Assembly (NCBI RefSeq): GCF_001543105.1
Contig: NZ_CP014159.1
Location: 558,001-622,000, forward strand
DNA from: Aerococcus christensenii
Lineage (GTDB): Bacteria; Bacillota; Bacilli; Lactobacillales; Aerococcaceae
Direction: 5' to 3'
Length of the DNA: 64,000 bases
In this document: one piece after another, positions 457 to 9,976 of the stretch
How positions within the stretch are numbered: the first letter of the stretch is position 1
How the letters are laid out: every line of letters begins with the position of its first letter
Notes under the pieces: generated by a model
Told to the model about the DNA's origin: nothing
Seen by the model: only the letters and a program-made list of their open reading frames with translations
The model's database searches: none
Position numbers and translations under genes: made by a program

Positions 457-864
457 TTATTTTTTAGGTAAGATTAATTCATCCTCTTCATGTTTCCCTT
501 GAATTTCAATAATGAGGCCGTGAGGCAAACAAACAGAAATATCTCCTGGTTCATTAATCCAGCCCGTACGCACTGCTATTTGGTAAGGTGAATTATCTTC
601 TTTGTCTCTAATGTATTCTCCGTCTTGTTCAATAATATTATACTCTCCCTCATGCGGATAATAAGTTTTTTCAATATGACCAGCATCTTCAGATAAAATA
701 AACCGATCTACTTCTTCTCCATCAATTTTTACAATAGCTACCGGTGCATCCACCTTATCCGTATAAATAAAAGTAGTGATAAATAATGGGGTGAAAGACA
801 ACACGAGTGCTATCCCTATAAACAGAAAATCCCATGGTTTAAAGGTTTTAAATAACTGCTTCAT
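457..864 (-). CDS. eetA: EetA-like membrane-anchored NusG-domain-II protein
   Basis: 135 residues. One N-terminal membrane helix (about residues 13-34) is followed by an extracytosolic domain of the NusG domain II type, recognisable from the GWINEPGDISVCLPHGL stretch near residues 100-116. In Listeria, EetA is one of two small membrane proteins thought to pass electrons from demethylmenaquinone to extracytosolic flavins. It is the last gene of the minus-strand EET operon, 15 bases after dmkA, and is followed by a terminator. EetB is not next to it but lies on the other side of the operon promoter, on the opposite strand. The family usually has more cysteines in the GWI region; only one (SVC) remains here. 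Confidence 0.8.
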   Translation of the reverse strand: MKQLFKTFKPWDFLFIGIALVLSFTPLFITTFIYTDKVDAPVAIVKIDGEEVDRFILSEDAGHIEKTYYPHEGEYNIIEQDGEYIRDKEDNSPYQIAVRTGWINEPGDISVCLPHGLIIEIQGKHEEDELILPKK

Positions 865-879
865 GTGTTTTTTCTCATC

Positions 880-1827
880 CTAACTCTTAAATAATGTCAC
901 TAACCCCATTAAAATCACATAAAATCCTGCTAAAATAATATAATTCTGAATAGTATTAAAAAATAGCTTTGGATCCTCAGAATGTTGCGTTAATTGGTAG
1001 ATCTTTTTCAATGAGAATGGTAACCCTAGAAAAGCGATTAGGCACCACCAAGGTAACCATCCAATAAATATAAAGCTTCCAAAAGATAGCCAAGCAAGCA
1101 AACCTAAAAACAAATAAAGATTTTCACTTTGCTTTCTACCTAAGTAATAGACTAGAGTATATCGCTCATTTTTAATATCTGTTTCCAAATCTCTTAAATT
1201 ATTAGCTAACATGATATTAGATGTCAAACATACTAAAGGGAAGCTCATCCAAAATATTTTGAAAAAATTCCCCCAATTAAACATTACAGATACTGCTTGT
1301 CCAGTCCATTCACTCGTTAATAAATTTTGAAAATTCGAGGCATAAATAGCCAAATACACAATACCAAATCCCATAGTTATTCCAGAAAATAATTCTCCAA
1401 ATGGCGTTCGAGAAATAGGAACAGGTCCGAAAGTATAAACAATACCAATGAAGAAGCAAACTCCTCCCATGAAAATTAACATTTTATCAGTTCTTAAAAC
1501 TAAACTAATCGAAAAAAGAAGAGAGAGCGCTAAAAGTGAAAAAATAACTAAACTTGCCCATCTTAATGATAGACCTTCTCGTCCAATAACATTTCCTTTT
1601 CTTTTATAGGTATTATCCACCGCTTTAACATAATCCATCGTATTGTTAATAGCTGTTGTACACATATCAAATAATAAAGCGGCAATGAAAAATAAAAGAC
1701 TATTTAAAAAGTTGAAATGATTAAAGTAGTACGATGCCCAAAAGAATCCAATAATCATCGGGAAAAAACTTGCTATTTTAGTTTTTAATTCCACAAATTC
1801 CAAAAATATTTTCAATTTATCATTCAT
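880..1827 (-). CDS. dmkA: UbiA-family prenyltransferase (demethylmenaquinone synthesis, EET type)
   Basis: 315 residues with about eight predicted membrane helices. Both aspartate-rich motifs of the UbiA superfamily are present: NN-x-x-DY-x(4)-D at about residues 61-71 and NNLRDLETD near 209-217. These bind the Mg-diphosphate of the prenyl donor. By family and context it is MenA-like DmkA, which joins a polyprenyl chain (made by DmkB) to 1,4-dihydroxy-2-naphthoate to make the quinone dedicated to extracellular electron transfer. The start overlaps the fmnB stop by four bases (ATGA), so the two are probably translationally coupled. The source of dihydroxynaphthoate is not in this window. Confidence 0.88.
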   Translation of the reverse strand: MNDKLKIFLEFVELKTKIASFFPMIIGFFWASYYFNHFNFLNSLLFFIAALLFDMCTTAINNTMDYVKAVDNTYKRKGNVIGREGLSLRWASLVIFSLLALSLLFSISLVLRTDKMLIFMGGVCFFIGIVYTFGPVPISRTPFGELFSGITMGFGIVYLAIYASNFQNLLTSEWTGQAVSVMFNWGNFFKIFWMSFPLVCLTSNIMLANNLRDLETDIKNERYTLVYYLGRKQSENLYLFLGLLAWLSFGSFIFIGWLPWWCLIAFLGLPFSLKKIYQLTQHSEDPKLFFNTIQNYIILAGFYVILMGLVTLFKS

Positions 1828-2903
1828 TGTAATTGATACCCCTTATGGTTCACTTTAAAATGTCCCTTTAAGCCGTCTGTAACATACACTTTATGGTCTT
1901 TTGTAATAAATACAGCTTCTACACCATCTAGCTGATTAATAAACGCCATACCGTCTTCCAACCCGTATAGAAAGGCACTAGTTGATAAAGCATCTCCGTT
2001 CACAGATGTCTTTGAAAAAATAGTCACTCCTGACAAATTATTTTCAACAGGGTACCCCGTTTGGGGATTTAAGATATGATGATACTTCGTATCTCCCACC
2101 TGTAAATATTGCTCATAGATACCAGAAGTTACGACAGAACTATCTTTTACACGTTCACTTCCAATAGTATCTCCCCGCGTTTCATCAGGATTTTGAATTC
2201 CTATTCTCCAACCTTCACTATTAGAAGGAGATTTTCCTAAAACTAAAACGTTTCCTCCCAAATTAACAATAGCCGATCGAACTCCATGACGCTGCATAAT
2301 AGCTTTTATTCCGTCTGCTATATATCCTTTAGAAATAGCTCCTAATTCAATAGCCATTCCTTTCTCTAATAACTCTACAGTATGCTCTTCTTCATTCAAT
2401 TTCACTTTTTTATAATCGATTTTTTTTAAAGCTTCTTTGATTTCCCAATCTTCCGGCTTTCTGGCATCTTCTGATCCAATACGCCACAATCGAACAACTG
2501 CACCGATTGTAATATCTAATCTGCCATTCGTTTTTTCAGCATACTCGCATCCTTTTTTAATAACATCAAAGGCTGCATCACCCACTTTAACAGGGCCCTT
2601 ACCTGCATTTTCATTGATTCTATATACATCGGACCCTTCATTATAAGTTCCTAGTTGATCTTCCATGTCTTTGATATAATCAAAAGATTCACGCATAGCT
2701 TGAATAGCTTGATCTCCATCGTGGAAAATTTGAATTTGACAAGCTGTATGCAACAAACTCTCACTTCTCTCAATAGGGGTTTTGGTCACTTTTAGTTCTC
2801 CGGTTTCTTCCCCTTTGTTGGAGAAAAAGAACCAACACCCTACCACGAGAATAACTATAAGAAATACATACCACTTACTGTGCTTCCTTAGTGAACGCTT
2901 CAT
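1824..2903 (-). CDS. fmnB: FAD:protein FMN transferase (ApbE/FmnB), lipoprotein
   Basis: 359 residues. The N-terminal hydrophobic segment ends in LVVGC (Cys23), a plausible lipobox, so the enzyme probably sits on the outer face of the membrane; a simple membrane anchor is the alternative. The ApbE fold is shown by ELGAISKGYIADGI, VNLGGNVLVLG, YHHILNPQTGYPV and the GDALSTSAFLYG segment near the C terminus, which carries metal-binding Asp and Thr/Ser residues. ApbE enzymes cleave FAD and attach FMN covalently to a Thr or Ser in a D-x-x-S/T-G-A-S/T motif of an extracytosolic protein. No FMN_bind-domain partner (PplA) is encoded nearby; the best substrate seen is the lipoprotein reductase at 6749-8278. 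Confidence 0.9.
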   Translation of the reverse strand: MKRSLRKHSKWYVFLIVILVVGCWFFFSNKGEETGELKVTKTPIERSESLLHTACQIQIFHDGDQAIQAMRESFDYIKDMEDQLGTYNEGSDVYRINENAGKGPVKVGDAAFDVIKKGCEYAEKTNGRLDITIGAVVRLWRIGSEDARKPEDWEIKEALKKIDYKKVKLNEEEHTVELLEKGMAIELGAISKGYIADGIKAIMQRHGVRSAIVNLGGNVLVLGKSPSNSEGWRIGIQNPDETRGDTIGSERVKDSSVVTSGIYEQYLQVGDTKYHHILNPQTGYPVENNLSGVTIFSKTSVNGDALSTSAFLYGLEDGMAFINQLDGVEAVFITKDHKVYVTDGLKGHFKVNHKGYQLQ

Positions 2904-2943
2904 TCATTTATCCTCTCTACATTCCGTGCTTCTTATCAAAGAA

Positions 2944-2974
2944 AGGTAGCCAATTGCTTACTAACAGGCTACCT
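2944..2974 (-). terminator. Intra-operon hairpin between dmkB and fmnB
   Basis: GGTAGCC (2945-2951) and GGCTACC (2967-2973) pair across a 15-base loop in the 104-base gap between dmkB and fmnB. On the minus strand it is followed by only a weak T-rich tract (TTTCTTTG), so it is either a leaky terminator or an mRNA processing or stability hairpin that grades expression along the operon. Confidence 0.5.
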
Positions 2975-3007
2975 CCTCCTCAAGAATAAAGTCGTATCAT
3001 TTTAAAT

Positions 3008-4039
3008 TTATTGACCAGAAAAAATTCGATCTAAGAGCGGTGCCAATTGATTAACTAAATCCTCTCCAAACGCCTTTTTTGTCCTATTTTTTGCTTTTAA
3101 GACGTATGACTTAATCAGCCGTTCCACGCGATCCAAAACTTTTTCTTCATCCATTAATGTTAGTAATTCTTTTTGTTGATCTTCTGTCCATTGCTCCCTA
3201 GATTTTGGAAGGATAGTAGCTAACCGCTCTTCTCCAATTCGGTCTCTTAAGATAAGAATAGGCGCCGTATAAATTCCATTTTTTACATCCTGTAATAAAG
3301 GTTTTCCTTGGCTTTGATTCATCGACCGAAAATCCGCTAAATCATCTAGTAATTGGAAAGCTAAACCAATTTGATTACCTACATAAAAAGCTTGTTTCAA
3401 TTCATGCAGATTGGATACTGAGAAATCTAATCCCGATGCACATGCTAACCCAAAGATAAGTGCTGTCTTTCCTTGTATTCGTTTCAAATATTGTCTAAAA
3501 GAGCCATGCAAGTTATAACGATCTAATTCTTGGCGAATTTCTCCACGTAAAATACCTTCTATTCCGTATTTCGTAGTCAAAGAGAAATCCGCTTTTACAT
3601 AATTCTTCAAAAAAAGTCTACCTGCATAGGCCAAAAGATAGTCTCCAGCATAAATCGCTATTCGATTACTTTTCTCAACTTGTAAAGTCGTAATACCTCT
3701 TCTTTCGGGAGATAAATCAATCACATCATCGTGAACTAATGTGGCTAAATGTAATATTTCAAGAGCTGCTGCTTTTTCAAAAACAGAAGATCTATCTTCG
3801 TTTTGATGGGCTGAAAAAATTAAACACAATCCACTCCGCAAGTATTTTCCACCGGCATCAATATATTGATCAATCTTTGCTTGAATATCCGGGACACTTA
3901 CTTTTAATTGGGTATGCATTAAAGATCTCACTGCAAAAAGATCTGCATTGATCTTAGGATATTCTTCCCATATAGGATGAAGAAACGCTTCTCTTTTTAC
4001 TTTTTGCTCCTGACATTCACTCAATGCTCTGCCACTCAC
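3008..4039 (-). CDS. dmkB: Polyprenyl diphosphate synthase (EET type)
   Basis: 343 residues of the trans-isoprenyl diphosphate synthase family. The first Asp-rich motif DDVID lies in LVHDDVIDLSPERRG and the second, DDLAD, in FQLLDDLADF; both bind Mg-diphosphate. It should elongate farnesyl or geranylgeranyl diphosphate to the side chain that DmkA attaches. The listed start is a GTG with a poor ribosome site (AAGAAA-like), and an in-frame TTG six codons downstream is also possible, so the N terminus is uncertain. The gene follows ndh2 by five bases, consistent with one transcript. Confidence 0.86.
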   Translation of the reverse strand: MSGRALSECQEQKVKREAFLHPIWEEYPKINADLFAVRSLMHTQLKVSVPDIQAKIDQYIDAGGKYLRSGLCLIFSAHQNEDRSSVFEKAAALEILHLATLVHDDVIDLSPERRGITTLQVEKSNRIAIYAGDYLLAYAGRLFLKNYVKADFSLTTKYGIEGILRGEIRQELDRYNLHGSFRQYLKRIQGKTALIFGLACASGLDFSVSNLHELKQAFYVGNQIGLAFQLLDDLADFRSMNQSQGKPLLQDVKNGIYTAPILILRDRIGEERLATILPKSREQWTEDQQKELLTLMDEEKVLDRVERLIKSYVLKAKNRTKKAFGEDLVNQLAPLLDRIFSGQ

Positions 4040-4044
4040 TTTCT

Positions 4045-5925
4045 TTATTCTTGCAGATCATTATATCGACATTTAATCTTACCATAAATCCAATGATCCA
4101 AATGTTTTCCTATCCATGGCTGTAGCCAATGATCCACTCCAAATGCGCGACCAGAACCACCCATTAAAGCCAAAGCTACAACAATAAACCACATATTTAC
4201 CCAATAAAACATACCTGATAAACAAAACATTCCAACAAGTACAATCGTTAAAGCACTTGTTAACCATACGAAAGCTCCGATAATTAAAGCCGCTCCAATA
4301 GCAATTTCTACTAAAGTCATGAATTTTTGCATGAATAAGGCCACATCTTGATTTGGCATCATGAATTTCATGATAGAACCAAACCATCTTGGCATTTCTT
4401 CTATGACTAATTTTGGTTGTTGTCCATAACTATAGTTAAGACTAAATATCCCTGGATCTGGTGCCGCTTGTGATGCACTACTTGTTGCCGCTTCACTTGC
4501 TCCACTGACTGCTTCCTTTAGCCACGGAAACGGAAAGACAATATCACTTCCAAACCAAGAATGCACCCCATGCCAACCAAACAATTTGGTCAAACCTTCA
4601 TAGAGCCACATCGCCCCATAAAATAAGCGCATAGGTACAGACCATAAAACATTACCTTTATGAGAAATATGCCCTCTAAATAAGTTCCTTTGGTGTCGCA
4701 TATCAAAGAATTCATGACGAACGTAAGCGCCTATGTTATAGAAGCTTCTAATAGAGAAGAAATATAATATATTACTCATGTGTTTCATAAAAGTAGCCAT
4801 AAATCCACTGACATGATACTTATCATAAACATATGCCACACTATAGCGAGAACCGATAGAAACCATAAATCCATCATATTTTCCAGTGTATTCTTCCATT
4901 TCTCCACCAGATAACAATTGGCTAATATTATATCCCACTAACTCACCAGTTTGTTCAGCGGCTTGTACAATCTGTGGGACATACGCCCCGTCTTGAGAAG
5001 CATCTTGATAAGAAACAAGATCTCCTGCAATAAAAATATCATCATGTTCCTTAGCCTGTAGATATTGATTAGTTTCTACTCTATTACCTCTAGCTGTTTT
5101 TAAGCCCCATTTTTTGGCTAACAAGTTACCTTGCACACCTGCTGTCCAAATCGTGGTATAAGAAGGAAGTTCTCGTCCTGAATTTAAAACAGCTTTGGTT
5201 GAAGTAACTTCTGCAATACCATCACTGGTAATAATCTCAATTCCTAACTTGTCCTCCATGAAGCGCCAAGCTTTAGTTTGTTCCTTTGGTGTCACCATTT
5301 TTAATATTTGATCCATAGCTTCCACCAAATATAAAGAAAATTCTTTAGGATCTAATTTATAGCGTTTAGCCAATATTGGCATCCATTCTGCTAATTCTCC
5401 CACAAGCTCTACCCCTGTAAAGCCTGCTCCTGAAACAACAAAACTTAACATTGCCCGACGTTTAGCTTCATCCGCTTCTCCAGAAGCTTTGCGAACAGTT
5501 TTTTCAATATGCTCTTTTAATTTCTCTGCAGCATCTATGCTCCATAAGCTAAAGGCATTCTCACCAACACCTTTAATTCCAAAATCATTAGACTGTCCAC
5601 CTAATGCCAAAACTAAATAATCATAAGAATAATTTTTGTCTTGACCAATTACTTGTTTTTTATCGTAATCAATATCAGTTACTTCGTCTGTAACTAAATG
5701 CACATTTTTAAGCTTACTGAAAATTCGACGCAAATCGTATTTTACAGCCTCTGGTTCGACACGATCTGCAGCTACTTCATGTAATTCTGTCATATAAGTC
5801 ATATAAGACCGTTTGTCAATCAAAGTAATTTTTACTGATAAATCTTTTTTATACTTTTTAGCTAAAGTTCTTGCCGCAGATACTCCTGCAAAGCCTGCAC
5901 CAACAATGATTATCCTTTTCTCCAA
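4045..5925 (-). CDS. ndh2: Type II NADH dehydrogenase with membrane C-terminal extension (Ndh2)
   Basis: 626 residues. The N-terminal half is a two-dinucleotide-fold flavoprotein: GAGFAG (FAD) at the start, SGAGFTGVELVGELAEW (NADH) at about 165-185, and IFIAGD (FAD) near 300. The C-terminal third (from about 430) has several membrane helices resembling DoxX, the extension that marks EET-type Ndh2 against ordinary Ndh. It passes NADH electrons to demethylmenaquinone without pumping protons. A GTG at 5934 overlaps the AGGAG ribosome site, so the TTG at 5925, eight bases from AGGAG, is the better start. It is first in the operon, behind a sigma-A promoter overlapping a cre site. Confidence 0.9.
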   Translation of the reverse strand: MEKRIIIVGAGFAGVSAARTLAKKYKKDLSVKITLIDKRSYMTYMTELHEVAADRVEPEAVKYDLRRIFSKLKNVHLVTDEVTDIDYDKKQVIGQDKNYSYDYLVLALGGQSNDFGIKGVGENAFSLWSIDAAEKLKEHIEKTVRKASGEADEAKRRAMLSFVVSGAGFTGVELVGELAEWMPILAKRYKLDPKEFSLYLVEAMDQILKMVTPKEQTKAWRFMEDKLGIEIITSDGIAEVTSTKAVLNSGRELPSYTTIWTAGVQGNLLAKKWGLKTARGNRVETNQYLQAKEHDDIFIAGDLVSYQDASQDGAYVPQIVQAAEQTGELVGYNISQLLSGGEMEEYTGKYDGFMVSIGSRYSVAYVYDKYHVSGFMATFMKHMSNILYFFSIRSFYNIGAYVRHEFFDMRHQRNLFRGHISHKGNVLWSVPMRLFYGAMWLYEGLTKLFGWHGVHSWFGSDIVFPFPWLKEAVSGASEAATSSASQAAPDPGIFSLNYSYGQQPKLVIEEMPRWFGSIMKFMMPNQDVALFMQKFMTLVEIAIGAALIIGAFVWLTSALTIVLVGMFCLSGMFYWVNMWFIVVALALMGGSGRAFGVDHWLQPWIGKHLDHWIYGKIKCRYNDLQE

Positions 5926-5972
5926 GTAAACCACTCCTAAAACAAATATTGTAGATACTTTGCCCGTTATTA

Positions 5973-6002: not shown

Positions 6003-6114
6003 TAAGCTTGTTAAAAAAATATTAATTTTTTTGTCCTTTATCTGTCCCATCGTTACCTTTCTTTTTATTTCGTAATATTATATTATTAAACCGTTGAAAG
6101 GAGCATTGATCACC

Positions 6115-6663
6115 TTGAAAATAAAATCTCTTTCTTATATCTCTATGTTAGCTGCACAAGGGATAGTTATTGGTTTAATTGAAAACACTTTTCCTTCTCC
6201 TTTTGTATTTGCGCCTGGAGCAAAGCTAGGATTAGCTAATTTAATTACTGTGATTTCTTTATTTACTCTTCCATTTCCGCAAGTGGCACTATTAACTTTT
6301 GTTCGCGTCAGTCTAACCGCTCTCTTTTCAGGATCTGCATCTTCTTTTTTCTTTAGTCTAAGTGGAGCTTTATTAAGTTTACTGGTAATGTCCCTCATTA
6401 AAAAATTAGGTCCAAATCGTGTCAGCATTATTGGAATTTCGATTATGGGAGGAATTTTTCACAATATTGGGCAATTGATTGTTGCGCGTTTTATGACATC
6501 AACGACTCTAATCTTTAATTACCTTCCTATAATGTCGCTATCCGGTATCTTAGCAGGGCTTGTTGTTGGTATTGTGGGGAACTTACTGCTCTATAAACTC
6601 AAAAAAAGCTGTAAACTCCCTCATTCACTAACCACTCCTTTAAAGAATAATCCTTGGCTATAA
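6115..6663 (+). CDS. eetB: EetB-like Gx-transporter-family membrane protein
   Basis: 182 residues with five to six hydrophobic helices, of the family annotated as Gx transporter or heptaprenyl diphosphate synthase component I. The early IENTFPSPFVFAPGAKLGLANLIT region is typical. In Listeria, EetB acts with EetA in moving electrons from demethylmenaquinone across the membrane. An AAAGGAG site at 6097-6103 rules out the TTG at 6094 and crowds the one at 6106, so the TTG at 6115 is preferred. It is transcribed away from the ndh2 operon, and the fumarate-reductase gene follows 85 bases later. Confidence 0.8.
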   Translation: MKIKSLSYISMLAAQGIVIGLIENTFPSPFVFAPGAKLGLANLITVISLFTLPFPQVALLTFVRVSLTALFSGSASSFFFSLSGALLSLLVMSLIKKLGPNRVSIIGISIMGGIFHNIGQLIVARFMTSTTLIFNYLPIMSLSGILAGLVVGIVGNLLLYKLKKSCKLPHSLTTPLKNNPWL

Positions 6664-6697: not shown

Positions 6698-6748
6698 AGA
6701 CATGTGGTACTTTGCACAAATTCTTTTTATTTTAGGAGGCTTTTAAAA

Positions 6749-8278
6749 ATGAAACGAGAGCATTTTAAATGGATACTTCTTCTTTTCACGTTTTTAATCG
6801 TATTAGCAGGTTGTGGATCTAGCTCTAAAGGCAATGATTCTGCGAAAAAATCCGATGCAAAAGTTGAAAAGAAGGACGATGCTAAATCTGGAGCAAGTAA
6901 AAAACAATATACCGACATTAAAGAACTAAAAGATAACTACGATATTGTTATTATTGGTGCCGGCGGAGCAGGTATGAGCGCTGCTATCGAAGCAAAAGAT
7001 GCTGGCTTAAATCCTGTTATTTTAGAAAAAATGCCAGTTGCTGGTGGGAATACTATTAAATCTTCTAGTGGTATGAACGCTTCAGGAACAGAAGTTCAAA
7101 AAGCAAACGGCATTGAAGATTCAAATGACAAATTCTTCGAAGAATCCTTAAAAGGTGGCCATGGTGCCAATGATAAAGAACTCTTAAGATACTTCGTAGA
7201 TCATTCTGCTGAAGCTATTGATTGGTTAAAGAAAAATGGCATTGTATTAGATAATCTTTCAATCACTGGCGGATCCAGCGTAAAACGTACTCACCGTCCA
7301 CATGACGGTTCAGCTGTTGGTGGTTACTTAGTAGACGGATTACTTCGCAACGTTAAAGAACGTAAAATTCCTCTCTTTGTAGATGCTAACGTTACTGAAA
7401 TTAGTGAAAAAGACGGCAAGCCAAATGGCGTTACAGTCAAAACAAAAGCAGGCGACAAAAAAATTACTGCTAAGAGTGTTATTGTAACAACCGGTGGTTT
7501 CGGTGCCAACAAAGATATGATCAAAGAACATCGTCCAGACCTTGAAGGTTACGTTTCTACTAACTCTAAAGGATCCACAGGTGACGGTATTAAAATGATC
7601 GAAAAACTCGGTGGCCAAGCTATTGATATGGATCAAATCCAAGTTCACCCTACTGTTCACCAAGAAGATGGTGCTCTTATTGGTGAAGCTTTACGTGGTG
7701 AAGGCGGTATTTTAGTAAATACAAAAGGTGACCGTTTTGTTAACGAATTAGATACACGTGATAAAGTATCCGCAGCTATTAACGATCAAGATGGCAAATT
7801 TGCTTACCTTATCATTAATAAAGATATCCGTGAACATGTAAAAGCTGTTGATTTCTATGAAAAGAAAGGCTATGTCAAGAAAGCAGACTCACTTGAAGAT
7901 CTAGCAAAAGAACTCAAACTCCCTGCTGACGAGCTCAAGAAAACTGTTGAAAAATGGAACAAGGACGTTGAAGAAAAGAAAGACTCAGATTTCGGTAGAA
8001 AAACTGGTATGGAACGCTCATTAAAATCTGGTCCATACTTCGTCATTAAGATTGGACCTGGTATCCACTACTCCATGGGTGGCGTAAAGATTAACTCAAA
8101 CACTGAAGTCCTTCATAAAGATACAAATAAACCTATTCCAGGACTATATGCAGCGGGCGAACTTATCGGAGGACTTCATGGTAAAAACCGTTTAGGTGGT
8201 AACTCTGTTGCTGATATCATCATCTTCGGTCGTCAAGCTGGTAAACAAGCTACCGAATTTGTTAAGAATAAGAAATAG
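6749..8278 (+). CDS. Secreted lipoprotein FAD-dependent fumarate-reductase-like flavoprotein
   Basis: 509 residues from the ATG behind AGGAGG; an upstream in-frame GTG has no ribosome site. Signal peptide with lipobox VLAGC (Cys22), a Lys/Asp/Ser/Ala-rich linker to about residue 60, then the flavocytochrome-c/fumarate-reductase flavin domain: GAGGAGMSAAIEA (FAD), THRPHDGS, ALRGEGGILVNTKGDRFVNE (catalytic Arg region), GIHYSMGGV (His) and NRLGGNSVADIIIFGR. The catalytic histidines and arginines of the family are all seen. Unlike Listeria FrdA it has no FMN_bind domain, but the linker holds DAKSGAS, an ApbE flavinylation motif. Probable role: extracytosolic reduction of fumarate or a similar enoate with electrons from the EET chain. 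The substrate is not proven. Confidence 0.85.
   Translation: MKREHFKWILLLFTFLIVLAGCGSSSKGNDSAKKSDAKVEKKDDAKSGASKKQYTDIKELKDNYDIVIIGAGGAGMSAAIEAKDAGLNPVILEKMPVAGGNTIKSSSGMNASGTEVQKANGIEDSNDKFFEESLKGGHGANDKELLRYFVDHSAEAIDWLKKNGIVLDNLSITGGSSVKRTHRPHDGSAVGGYLVDGLLRNVKERKIPLFVDANVTEISEKDGKPNGVTVKTKAGDKKITAKSVIVTTGGFGANKDMIKEHRPDLEGYVSTNSKGSTGDGIKMIEKLGGQAIDMDQIQVHPTVHQEDGALIGEALRGEGGILVNTKGDRFVNELDTRDKVSAAINDQDGKFAYLIINKDIREHVKAVDFYEKKGYVKKADSLEDLAKELKLPADELKKTVEKWNKDVEEKKDSDFGRKTGMERSLKSGPYFVIKIGPGIHYSMGGVKINSNTEVLHKDTNKPIPGLYAAGELIGGLHGKNRLGGNSVADIIIFGRQAGKQATEFVKNKK
6878..6898 (+). other. Putative ApbE flavinylation motif in the lipoprotein linker
   Basis: Codons 44-50 read DAKSGAS, fitting D-x-x-[ST]-[GS]-A-[ST]; the predicted acceptor is Ser50. 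It lies between the lipid-anchored Cys22 and the FAD domain, in a segment with no predicted fold, and fmnB is in the neighbouring operon. Confidence 0.6.
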
Positions 8279-8470: not shown

Positions 8471-9976
8471 ATGGAATTTTCTTTTTCACCATTAAATTTA
8501 TATACAAACTTTAAAGAAGCCTGTCAAAATCATCCCTCAACTTCAATGGTTTTTGATGAATTACTTCCTGCGTTTCCAGAAATTGGATATGAAACCACTT
8601 ACGAAGAAGTTCACCAAGCTATTCTTAAAAGAGCCTATCAATTAAATCACATGAGACTTAAGAAACATGATTTCCTAATTATTTTCAAATCTAGTCGTTT
8701 TGACACTTATCTTTTAGCAGTAGCTGCAAGTTATCTTGGAATTATCCCTGTTATGATTTCCTATCACTTTAAAGAAGATACTTTAGCTGTCTTCCAAGAA
8801 CGTCTGGATGATCCTTACATTATCTATGATGATGTAACTTCTCCTGTAATAGATAAACTTCAATCGCACAAAGCATTCTCTGTAAGAGATCTTGTCCTCG
8901 AAGATGAAGAACCTATTTCACAACAATTCCTTAAAGAAGATGAAATTTCTTATATTACCCATACTTCCGGAACAACTGGCATTCCAAAATTAATTTGTCA
9001 CTCTGCGATTTCTATGGGCTGGCGAGTTTACTGGCATTGTCTAATCTTCTCAAAAATTGATCGCATCGATCGCATCGGATTCCTTATTTCACCTGTCCAT
9101 TCCCGTTACAATATTGGGATTTCCTCACTGATGAAAATAGGTTATCCTCTCATGCCCTTATCCAATTCAAAATTATCTGTTATTAAGAGCATGCTAACTA
9201 AATATCCCGTCATTGCACTAGAAACTCATCCAAATCACTTCCTACAATGGCGTGTATTGACCCAAACCTGTCCTGAAATCTTCAAAACCGTTAAATACTA
9301 TCATTCCACCTTTGATGCCATTAACAACCAAACCATGGTGGACTTCCTATCTACTTCTGGGCATAAGGAAGCTTACTTCCTTCAAGTTTATGGTCAAAGT
9401 GAATGTGGCCCTATGATCTTAAAAGTTCATACTCTCGATTCCTTAAAAACGGATGAAGGTCGAGATATGGGACAAGGTTTAGCTCCACTAACAGATGCGC
9501 GTATTGTTGATGAAAATAAAAATTTACTTTCAAAAAATACCCCTGGTCATATTCAACTTTTATCAAGAGGTCGTGCCTTAACCTACTACAAAGAAAATGA
9601 ACGATTTAATGAAAATGTTGACGGCGATTGGTGGGACAGCGGGGATTACGGCTATATCAATGATGAAGGTCATCTCTTTTTACAAGATCGCCAAGTCGAT
9701 CTCATTAAAAATATCGAAAGTAACCTTCAGTTAGAAGATTTCTTATTAGATCATCTCTCATTTTTAGCTGAAGTCGTTATTGTTAGAGATCCAGAAGGGA
9801 AACCGCAACCTATTATCGCTATAAATGAAGGTCAAACCTTTGATGAAGATGCTTGGTGGCAAGCTGTTAGTGATCTCCCTTACCTGAACAAACCAATTAT
9901 TTGGGATTACGATCAATTCCCACGAACTGCCACAATGAAAATTCGTCGATTAACCATTGAATCCCAACTCAAATAA
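8471..9976 (+). CDS. AMP-forming acyl-CoA synthetase/ligase family enzyme
   Basis: 501 residues of the adenylate-forming superfamily. THTSGTTGIPKL (about 160-171) is the P-loop-like AMP motif, VYGQSECGP (about 310-318) the A5-type motif, WWDSGDYGYINDEGHLFLQDR the ribose-binding and hinge region, and PRTATMKIRR near the C terminus holds the catalytic lysine. It would activate a carboxylic acid with ATP and pass it to CoA or another acceptor; the substrate is not evident. It has a TAGGAG ribosome site 7 bases from the ATG and a terminator on each side, so it appears monocistronic. Its place beside the fumarate reductase is suggestive but no link can be shown. Confidence 0.8.
   Translation: MEFSFSPLNLYTNFKEACQNHPSTSMVFDELLPAFPEIGYETTYEEVHQAILKRAYQLNHMRLKKHDFLIIFKSSRFDTYLLAVAASYLGIIPVMISYHFKEDTLAVFQERLDDPYIIYDDVTSPVIDKLQSHKAFSVRDLVLEDEEPISQQFLKEDEISYITHTSGTTGIPKLICHSAISMGWRVYWHCLIFSKIDRIDRIGFLISPVHSRYNIGISSLMKIGYPLMPLSNSKLSVIKSMLTKYPVIALETHPNHFLQWRVLTQTCPEIFKTVKYYHSTFDAINNQTMVDFLSTSGHKEAYFLQVYGQSECGPMILKVHTLDSLKTDEGRDMGQGLAPLTDARIVDENKNLLSKNTPGHIQLLSRGRALTYYKENERFNENVDGDWWDSGDYGYINDEGHLFLQDRQVDLIKNIESNLQLEDFLLDHLSFLAEVVIVRDPEGKPQPIIAINEGQTFDEDAWWQAVSDLPYLNKPIIWDYDQFPRTATMKIRRLTIESQLK

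Follow-up and report, generated by a model that had tools for sequence, protein, structure and literature searches.

How might electrons from NADH reach fumarate outside the membrane at a flavin-based extracellular electron transfer (FLEET, or EET) locus that lacks the carrier PplA? The question is raised by a stretch of 64,000 nucleotides from Aerococcus christensenii (contig NZ_CP014159.1, positions 558,001 to 622,000; hereafter the window), in which frdA, encoding a fumarate-reductase-type lipoprotein, stands beside such an operon. A preliminary description, made from the letters of the window, had placed an ApbE-type flavinylation motif in the linker of this protein and proposed that flavin mononucleotide (FMN) is carried there on a flexible tether, making one small protein both electron carrier and terminal reductase. 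Comparison with orthologues and with FrdA of Listeria leads us to a similar view of FrdA, and to a second candidate site for FMN in the type II NADH dehydrogenase Ndh2.

FrdA and the motif in its linker

The product of frdA is a full-length member of the flavocytochrome c equivalog NF005064 (824.8 bits against a cut-off of 542; residues 1-507 covered) and is 61% identical to the flavocytochrome c WP_003723206 of L. monocytogenes. The closest solved structures are those of flavocytochrome c3 (Fcc3) fumarate reductases (1d4c and others). Residues H300 (at the hinge), E313, R316, R337, H440 and R481 have counterparts in 1d4c and do not vary among five orthologues; we take them to be the catalytic positions of Fcc3. 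His as against Tyr at the hinge separates the fumarate type from the urocanate type (PMC7921117), and His300 argues for fumarate, not urocanate, as the substrate of FrdA. On these comparisons the gene very probably encodes a lipid-anchored, extracytosolic reductase whose substrate would be fumarate.

The first 50 residues of FrdA, MKREHFKWILLLFTFLIVLAGCGSSSKGNDSAKKSDAKVEKKDDAKSGAS, end in DDAKSGAS. The last seven of these match D-x-x-[ST]-G-A-[ST], the motif expected of an extracytosolic ApbE (FmnB) substrate, and both the residue numbering (44-50) and the coordinates (6878-6898) of the motif, between the lipobox Cys22 and the flavin adenine dinucleotide (FAD) domain, are exactly as first described. 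The absence of an FMN_bind domain and the presence of an ApbE gene nearby (fmnB, 1824-2903, minus strand) were likewise borne out: Pfam detected FAD_binding_2 (residues 65-487) in FrdA and no match to PF04205 at E up to 0.001. An FMN_bind domain that had escaped detection was ruled out, because Pfam found none in FrdA of Listeria either, at E up to 1. Judged by eye from Cys22 of FrdA and the lipoprotein-like start of FmnB, the two proteins are predicted to lie on the same side of the membrane.

Across the order, 133 genomes yielded 141 FrdA-like proteins that scored above 450 bits, among the matches listed and with per-genome duplicates dropped. Another 22 shorter matches above the cut-off were left out; 20 of them begin at profile positions 52-56 and have no linker region, and the other two begin at positions 30 (genome G225) and 37 (G146). 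[ST][GS]A[ST] precedes the FAD domain in 126 of the 132 orthologues with an N-terminal hydrophobic segment and in none of the nine without it (0/9). These numbers were obtained with the signal threshold lowered from 1.9 to 1.75, because five clear motif-bearing lipoproteins scored under 1.9; at 1.9, the counts are 121/126 and 5/15. In all but ten of the 126 motif-bearing orthologues (116), exactly 14 residues separate the acceptor Ser/Thr from the FAD domain. Motif-free linkers in orthologues had been named in the preliminary description as evidence against its proposal, and the 126 of 132 mostly speak in its favour. By our own pattern the lipobox is missing from 13 of the 121 motif-bearing proteins counted at 1.9; most of these 13 resemble ordinary secreted or anchored proteins, so that the lipid is not universal though the motif is.

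When the 41-residue linker of FrdA from the window was shuffled 200,000 times, the strict motif arose in 0.42% of the shuffles and the loose motif (any first residue) in 2.6%. For a single linker this is weak evidence against chance; across orthologues the motif is clearly not due to chance, because it recurs at the same position in the signal-bearing proteins with a fixed spacing, which also rules out a merely compositional origin. A DNA search of the whole genome for [DE]xx[ST]GA[ST] gave 31 matches, compared with 21 for the reversed pattern. Thirty of the 31 were checked in frame (one, without a locus, was left out), and six are real in frames of at least 100 amino acids: FrdA, Ndh2, two FMN_bind reductases (one of them interrupted) and two that look unrelated, taken by eye as a cysteinyl-tRNA synthetase and an MltG-like protein.

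Column conservation was derived from 104 distinct 45-residue N-termini with the spacing of 14; they were chosen by the motif, so the motif columns are conserved by construction. At position 1 of the motif, 68 of the 104 have Glu and 31 have Asp, the rarer residue and the one present in FrdA of the window. Whether the motif is the sole conserved part of the linker had been posed as a check. The alignment shows that it is not: Y-T-D-P-x-E-L-K-D-x-Y is conserved after the motif (Y54, T55, L60 and Y64 strongly), whereas the stretch before it is not. Of the proposed flexible tether, the stretch between lipid and FMN does look free, but the segment between FMN and FAD is conserved and its spacing is fixed. 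An FMN held at a fixed sequence distance from the FAD domain suggests a defined docking position that would take the place of the haem domain of Fcc3.

FrdA of L. monocytogenes resembles that of the window in being a lipoprotein with EVTSGAS in the same place and no FMN_bind domain; it differs at position 1 of the motif (Glu instead of Asp) and in being encoded away from the EET locus (PMC9973259), whereas frdA of the window adjoins a locus without pplA. In Listeria, FrdA requires FmnB to become flavinylated (PMC9973259); the last steps are carried out by PplA and FrdA, and fumarate gives no stimulation in an fmnB mutant (PMC9094743). Listeria FrdA has been shown to be flavinylated, at a site called an FMN-binding domain (PMC8238504); since Pfam finds no such domain there, the site would be a bare linker motif, contrary to that wording. 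Comparison supports a genuine site of the ApbE type in the linker of this secreted, lipid-anchored fumarate reductase, whose presumed transferase is encoded in the same locus. The novelty of the site is not supported, because Listeria FrdA has the motif in the same place, has no FMN_bind domain and is reported to be flavinylated by FmnB. The preliminary description is in this way partly supported: its mechanism is essentially correct and essentially already published, and the protein itself is a new member of the family. The original paper on the flavinylation of Listeria FrdA is said to be that of Light et al. in 2019.

Other flavin-linked reductases share parts of this design. UrdA, the urocanate reductase of Shewanella oneidensis, is extracytosolic, has the same fold and carries ApbE-linked FMN, but its FMN is described as lying in an N-terminal domain, and Tyr373 occupies the position of His300 (PMC7921117). 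Shewanella Fcc3 (FccA) has the same catalytic fold and residues, with an N-terminal multi-haem cytochrome domain in place of a flavinylated tail (PMC8238504). A covalent flavin on such a motif is also found in the trypanosomatid glycosomal enzyme FRDg, at the extreme N-terminus and outside FMN_bind (PMC8065229), and in the cytosolic fumarate reductase of Klebsiella (PMC12052999); unlike FrdA, both are intracellular, and in FRDg the same polypeptide also contains ApbE-like and cytochrome b5 reductase domains.

By analogy with the Listeria work, FmnB would take FMN from exported FAD and attach it to Ser50, in the tail that links the lipid of FrdA to its FAD domain. NADH would feed electrons through Ndh2 into the demethylmenaquinone (DMK) of the membrane, from which they would reach FMN on Ser50, FAD and finally fumarate; FrdA, as its own last carrier, would not need PplA. 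We place the probability of this reading at about 0.88.

Coupling of the motif to secretion and FmnB

Several observations weigh against this reading. In a tree of the FrdA catalytic domain (FastTree), the motif changes only four times and the signal only twice, so the coupling between them rests on few events. Two proteins keep the motif in genomes with no ApbE match, one as ETLSGAS (G166) and one in a genome that is 63% complete (G063). Conversely, three FrdA proteins of the genus g13 depart from the motif though g13 genomes have ApbE, and FrdA of Enterococcus sp. JM4C reads DVTSAAS, off the motif. ApbE presence was read by eye from the match lists of each genome, secreted and cytosolic forms being taken together. 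Because the tree holds so few changes, a Fisher value of 1e-10 was rejected as a measure of the link to secretion, and we relied on separate loss events instead.

One such loss is seen in a tandem paralogue of G143, which has no signal and reads KKVTSAK, next to a copy that keeps both the signal and DAVTSAT. The six signal-bearing exceptions comprise two sets of three. Three proteins of genus g41 have lost the motif and, on alignment by eye, have Tyr in place of the lipobox Cys. G153 encodes an intact copy as well; of the three genomes, G133 gave no match to ApbE and the other two did. In three g13 proteins, the lipobox is intact and EAVASAS, with Ala at position 4, takes the place of the motif. 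The same change of Ser/Thr to Ala at position 4 is found in PplA of G040 and G043 (EVVAGAT), though not of G042 (EVVSGAT). Since PplA, an established kind of FmnB substrate, shifts alike in two of the three genomes, EAVASAS looks more like a recognition sequence drifting in both substrates than like a loss, and we rejected the g13 proteins as plain counter-examples. A shift in FmnB specificity is suggested in g13 (loci L181, L182 and L230).

A deep clade of signal-less, linker-less FrdA-like proteins includes a second copy from the genome of the window. A linker-less, signal-less FrdA paralogue of this genome (L014, 1441-2808) adjoins a gene that by eye resembles dicarboxylate-type transporters.

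A second motif in a predicted outer loop of Ndh2

That FrdA acts as both carrier and reductase is the reading we favour, with the qualification that FrdA is perhaps not the sole outer flavin carrier, as a loop of Ndh2 bears a motif of the same type, EAVSGAS. Hydropathy indicates four helices in the C-terminal membrane domain of Ndh2, with the motif between helix 1 and helix 2. The match of this domain to DoxX is weak, at its cut-off, that to DoxD is very weak and found in relatives, and a comparison with solved structures gave 0 matches. The mean for Lys+Arg is 4.5 before helix 1, 4.8 after helix 4 and 2.2 in the loop, where Asp+Glu reaches 7.5. Because it is acid-rich and poor in Lys/Arg between Lys/Arg-rich flanks, the loop is predicted to lie outside, where FmnB works.

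From 69 FmnB loci, a first set of 53 Ndh2 proteins (that of the window included) was obtained, 16 loci having no Ndh2 in the stretch. [ST]GA[ST] occurs in the loop of 43 of the 53 and stands 4-8 residues after a conserved WL in 42 of these; shuffling of the variable part of the loop, which is rich in Ala/Ser/Thr, gave expectations of 2.75 in the loop and 0.43 at the fixed offset. Among 17 representatives less than 70% identical to each other, 13 have the loop motif. In the other 10 of the 53 the motif is changed, for example to DVTSAAS or DAVAGAS. With Ala allowed at position 5, the loop motif is present in 51 of 53; a Gly-to-Ala change is reported to leave about half of the flavinylation in place (PMC12052999). 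For a second set, a frequency of at least 75% was predicted beforehand. Its 20 loci contain 19 Ndh2 proteins (one a fragment), and all have the motif at the offset (19/19), though identities of 76-99% to proteins of the first set mean that they are not strictly independent. In both sets together, 62 of 72 have [ST]GA[ST] in the loop, with topology assigned from hydropathy and charge, and the motif occurs only three times outside the loop across all 72. All 72 were drawn from FmnB loci. The loop motif is sometimes repeated (L176, L226), with three copies per loop in G011 and G001.

In a clostridial Ndh2 homologue (32% identical) whose locus includes FmnB, the loop contains DAVSAAT and DAVTAAT; the lipoprotein adjoining the clostridial FmnB has no such motif. 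In two NDH-2 proteins from outside FmnB loci, the whole membrane domain is missing.

The published Listeria work consulted names PplA and FrdA as flavinylation targets. We found no report of a flavinylated Ndh2 in the literature searched, outside which the papers of Light et al. lie, and novelty is not proven. The tryptic peptide over the Ndh2 site has 35 residues in the protein of the window, 60 in G163 and 67 in G318; the last two genomes we take as L. monocytogenes and E. faecalis, their FrdA N-termini being equal to those of records L001 and L003. Peptides of such length are awkward in routine proteomics, so the site may have been missed. For E. faecalis, the carrier that takes electrons from the reduced quinol (DMKH2) to the outside is stated to be unknown (PMC9864754).

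These observations bear on an extension of the reading given above, in which Ndh2 would act at the inner end of the chain, oxidising NADH, and at its outer end as well. FmnB would flavinylate the conserved extracytosolic loop between transmembrane helices 1 and 2 (TM1-TM2), and quinol oxidised in the same DoxX/DoxD-like membrane domain would reduce this outer FMN, which would pass electrons to the FMN of FrdA or PplA. The fixed offset, the second set, the predicted position of the loop, the clostridial homologue and the vacant step in E. faecalis argue for it; the changed motifs, the composition of the loop, the kinship of the two sets, their common origin in FmnB loci, the motif-less clostridial lipoprotein and the targets named for Listeria argue against it. 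We give this extension an even chance. In the window, FMN on Ser480 of Ndh2 would be the preferred candidate donor to the FMN on Ser50.

The locus without pplA

Of the genes of the known FLEET locus, ndh2 (with membrane domain), dmkA, dmkB, fmnB, eetA and eetB are present (Table 1); the window differs from that locus in having no pplA and in having frdA attached. Genes were named from Pfam domains and from similarity to the annotated Listeria locus (L276); the role of EetB in FAD export is taken from PMC9973259. The same gene order, with pplA between fmnB and dmkB, is found in G010, G011 and G012, which belong to the same genus, and in G075, a more distant member of the family; in all four, eetA is on the strand opposite to that in the window.

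Table 1. Features of the flavin-based electron transfer locus and of frdA (positions in the window; residues in the protein).
Feature	Position	Strand	Basis
EetA, NusG_II-domain protein	457..864	-	PF07009
DmkA, 1,4-dihydroxy-2-naphthoate (DHNA) polyprenyltransferase, UbiA family	880..1827	-	PF01040
FmnB, FAD:protein FMN transferase of the ApbE family (N-terminus like that of a lipoprotein, judged by eye)	1824..2903	-	PF02424, 6.6e-85
104-bp fmnB-dmkB gap, position of pplA in G010, G011, G012 and G075	2904..3007	-	synteny
DmkB, polyprenyl diphosphate synthase	3008..4039	-	PF00348
Ndh2, type II NADH dehydrogenase, 629 aa, with C-terminal four-helix DoxX-like membrane domain	4045..5934	-	Pyr_redox_2
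Ndh2 motif EAVSGAS, residues 474-480, predicted outer TM1-TM2 loop	4495..4515	-	
EetB, FAD-export ECF-S-like protein, directly upstream of frdA	6094..6663	+	PF07456
frdA start codon ATG, with AGGAGG upstream at 6734-6739	6749	+	
FrdA, lipoprotein fumarate-reductase-type flavoprotein, 509 aa	6749..8278	+	NF005064; Listeria relative
FrdA signal peptide with lipobox L-A-G-C, Cys22	6749..6814	+	by eye, from sequence
FrdA flavinylation motif DAKSGAS, residues 44-50; Ser50 = predicted FMN site	6878..6898	+	
FrdA conserved 14-residue segment KKQYTDIKELKDNY, residues 51-64, from motif to FAD domain	6899..6940	+	
FrdA FAD_binding_2 catalytic domain, residues 65-487	6941..8209	+	Pfam
AMP-binding ligase, downstream of frdA	8471..9976	+	

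As first described, the locus has no pplA, and a Listeria-type PplA query gave 0 matches in the whole genome. Across the genus, this query matched 4 of 15 genomes, three clearly and G014 weakly (3.7e-4). A PplA match is missing from 3 of the 72 Ndh2 loci (the window, G154 and G084). EET genes stand beside FrdA in 1 of 144 FrdA loci, that of the window (FrdA above 450 bits, among the matches listed). The flanks scanned were about 1.5 kb or 4 kb, depending on the search batch, and 3-9 kb for named records; the 144 include some near-duplicates, where one species is present both as a named record and as a genome.

The position of the gap, exactly between fmnB and dmkB, and the unique placement of frdA beside the operon would also fit a broader role, in which FrdA takes over from PplA as a general electron outlet, towards ferric iron and free flavins, with fumarate as one acceptor among them. 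We consider this unlikely: FrdA retains the catalytic residues expected of a fumarate reductase, its sequence shows no sign of iron reduction, and Lactococcus without pplA still makes current (PMC8837199). Least credible is a chance motif in a Lys/Ser/Ala/Asp-rich lipoprotein spacer that bears no flavin, with FrdA fed directly by free flavins or quinol, since, for all the low complexity of the linker and the 2.6% of shuffles with a loose match, the spacing is fixed, the motif follows the signal among orthologues and the Listeria orthologue is reported to be flavinylated.

Other genes touch this system. PF04205 has two matches in the genome. One is a signal-less reductase of 637 amino acids with FMN_bind and FAD_binding_2 domains and the motif DTISGAT (L011, 3287-5197); the other is a related FMN_bind reductase with an interrupted frame (L007; about 986-988 kb in G000). 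A second ApbE of the same genome has no evident signal peptide (L009, 1474-2397), and together with the 637-residue reductase it probably forms a cytosolic flavinylation pair. AMP-binding, acyl-CoA-synthetase-like genes neighbour FrdA in 22 of the 144 loci, in the genus Listeria, two other lineages and the window, in varying orientations; examples are 8471-9976 (plus strand) in the window, 1238-2764 in L001, and L104, L106, L152 and L154. The gene in the window scores far under the MenE cut-off.

The locus amounts to a natural experiment: genes for flavin-based electron transfer are there, the PplA carrier is not, and a reductase stands beside the operon. Its FrdA carries a known mechanism into a new lineage. 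If Ndh2 is flavinylated as proposed, the locus would encode a minimal chain from NADH to fumarate, with just two outer flavins, on Ndh2 and on FrdA. Ndh2 starts the chain and bears a conserved site in a predicted outer loop, which makes it a candidate for the missing transfer of electrons through the membrane. Boldly put, but in a form open to test, the loop site may be a concrete candidate for the step from quinol to the outside in Listeria, Enterococcus and their relatives alike.

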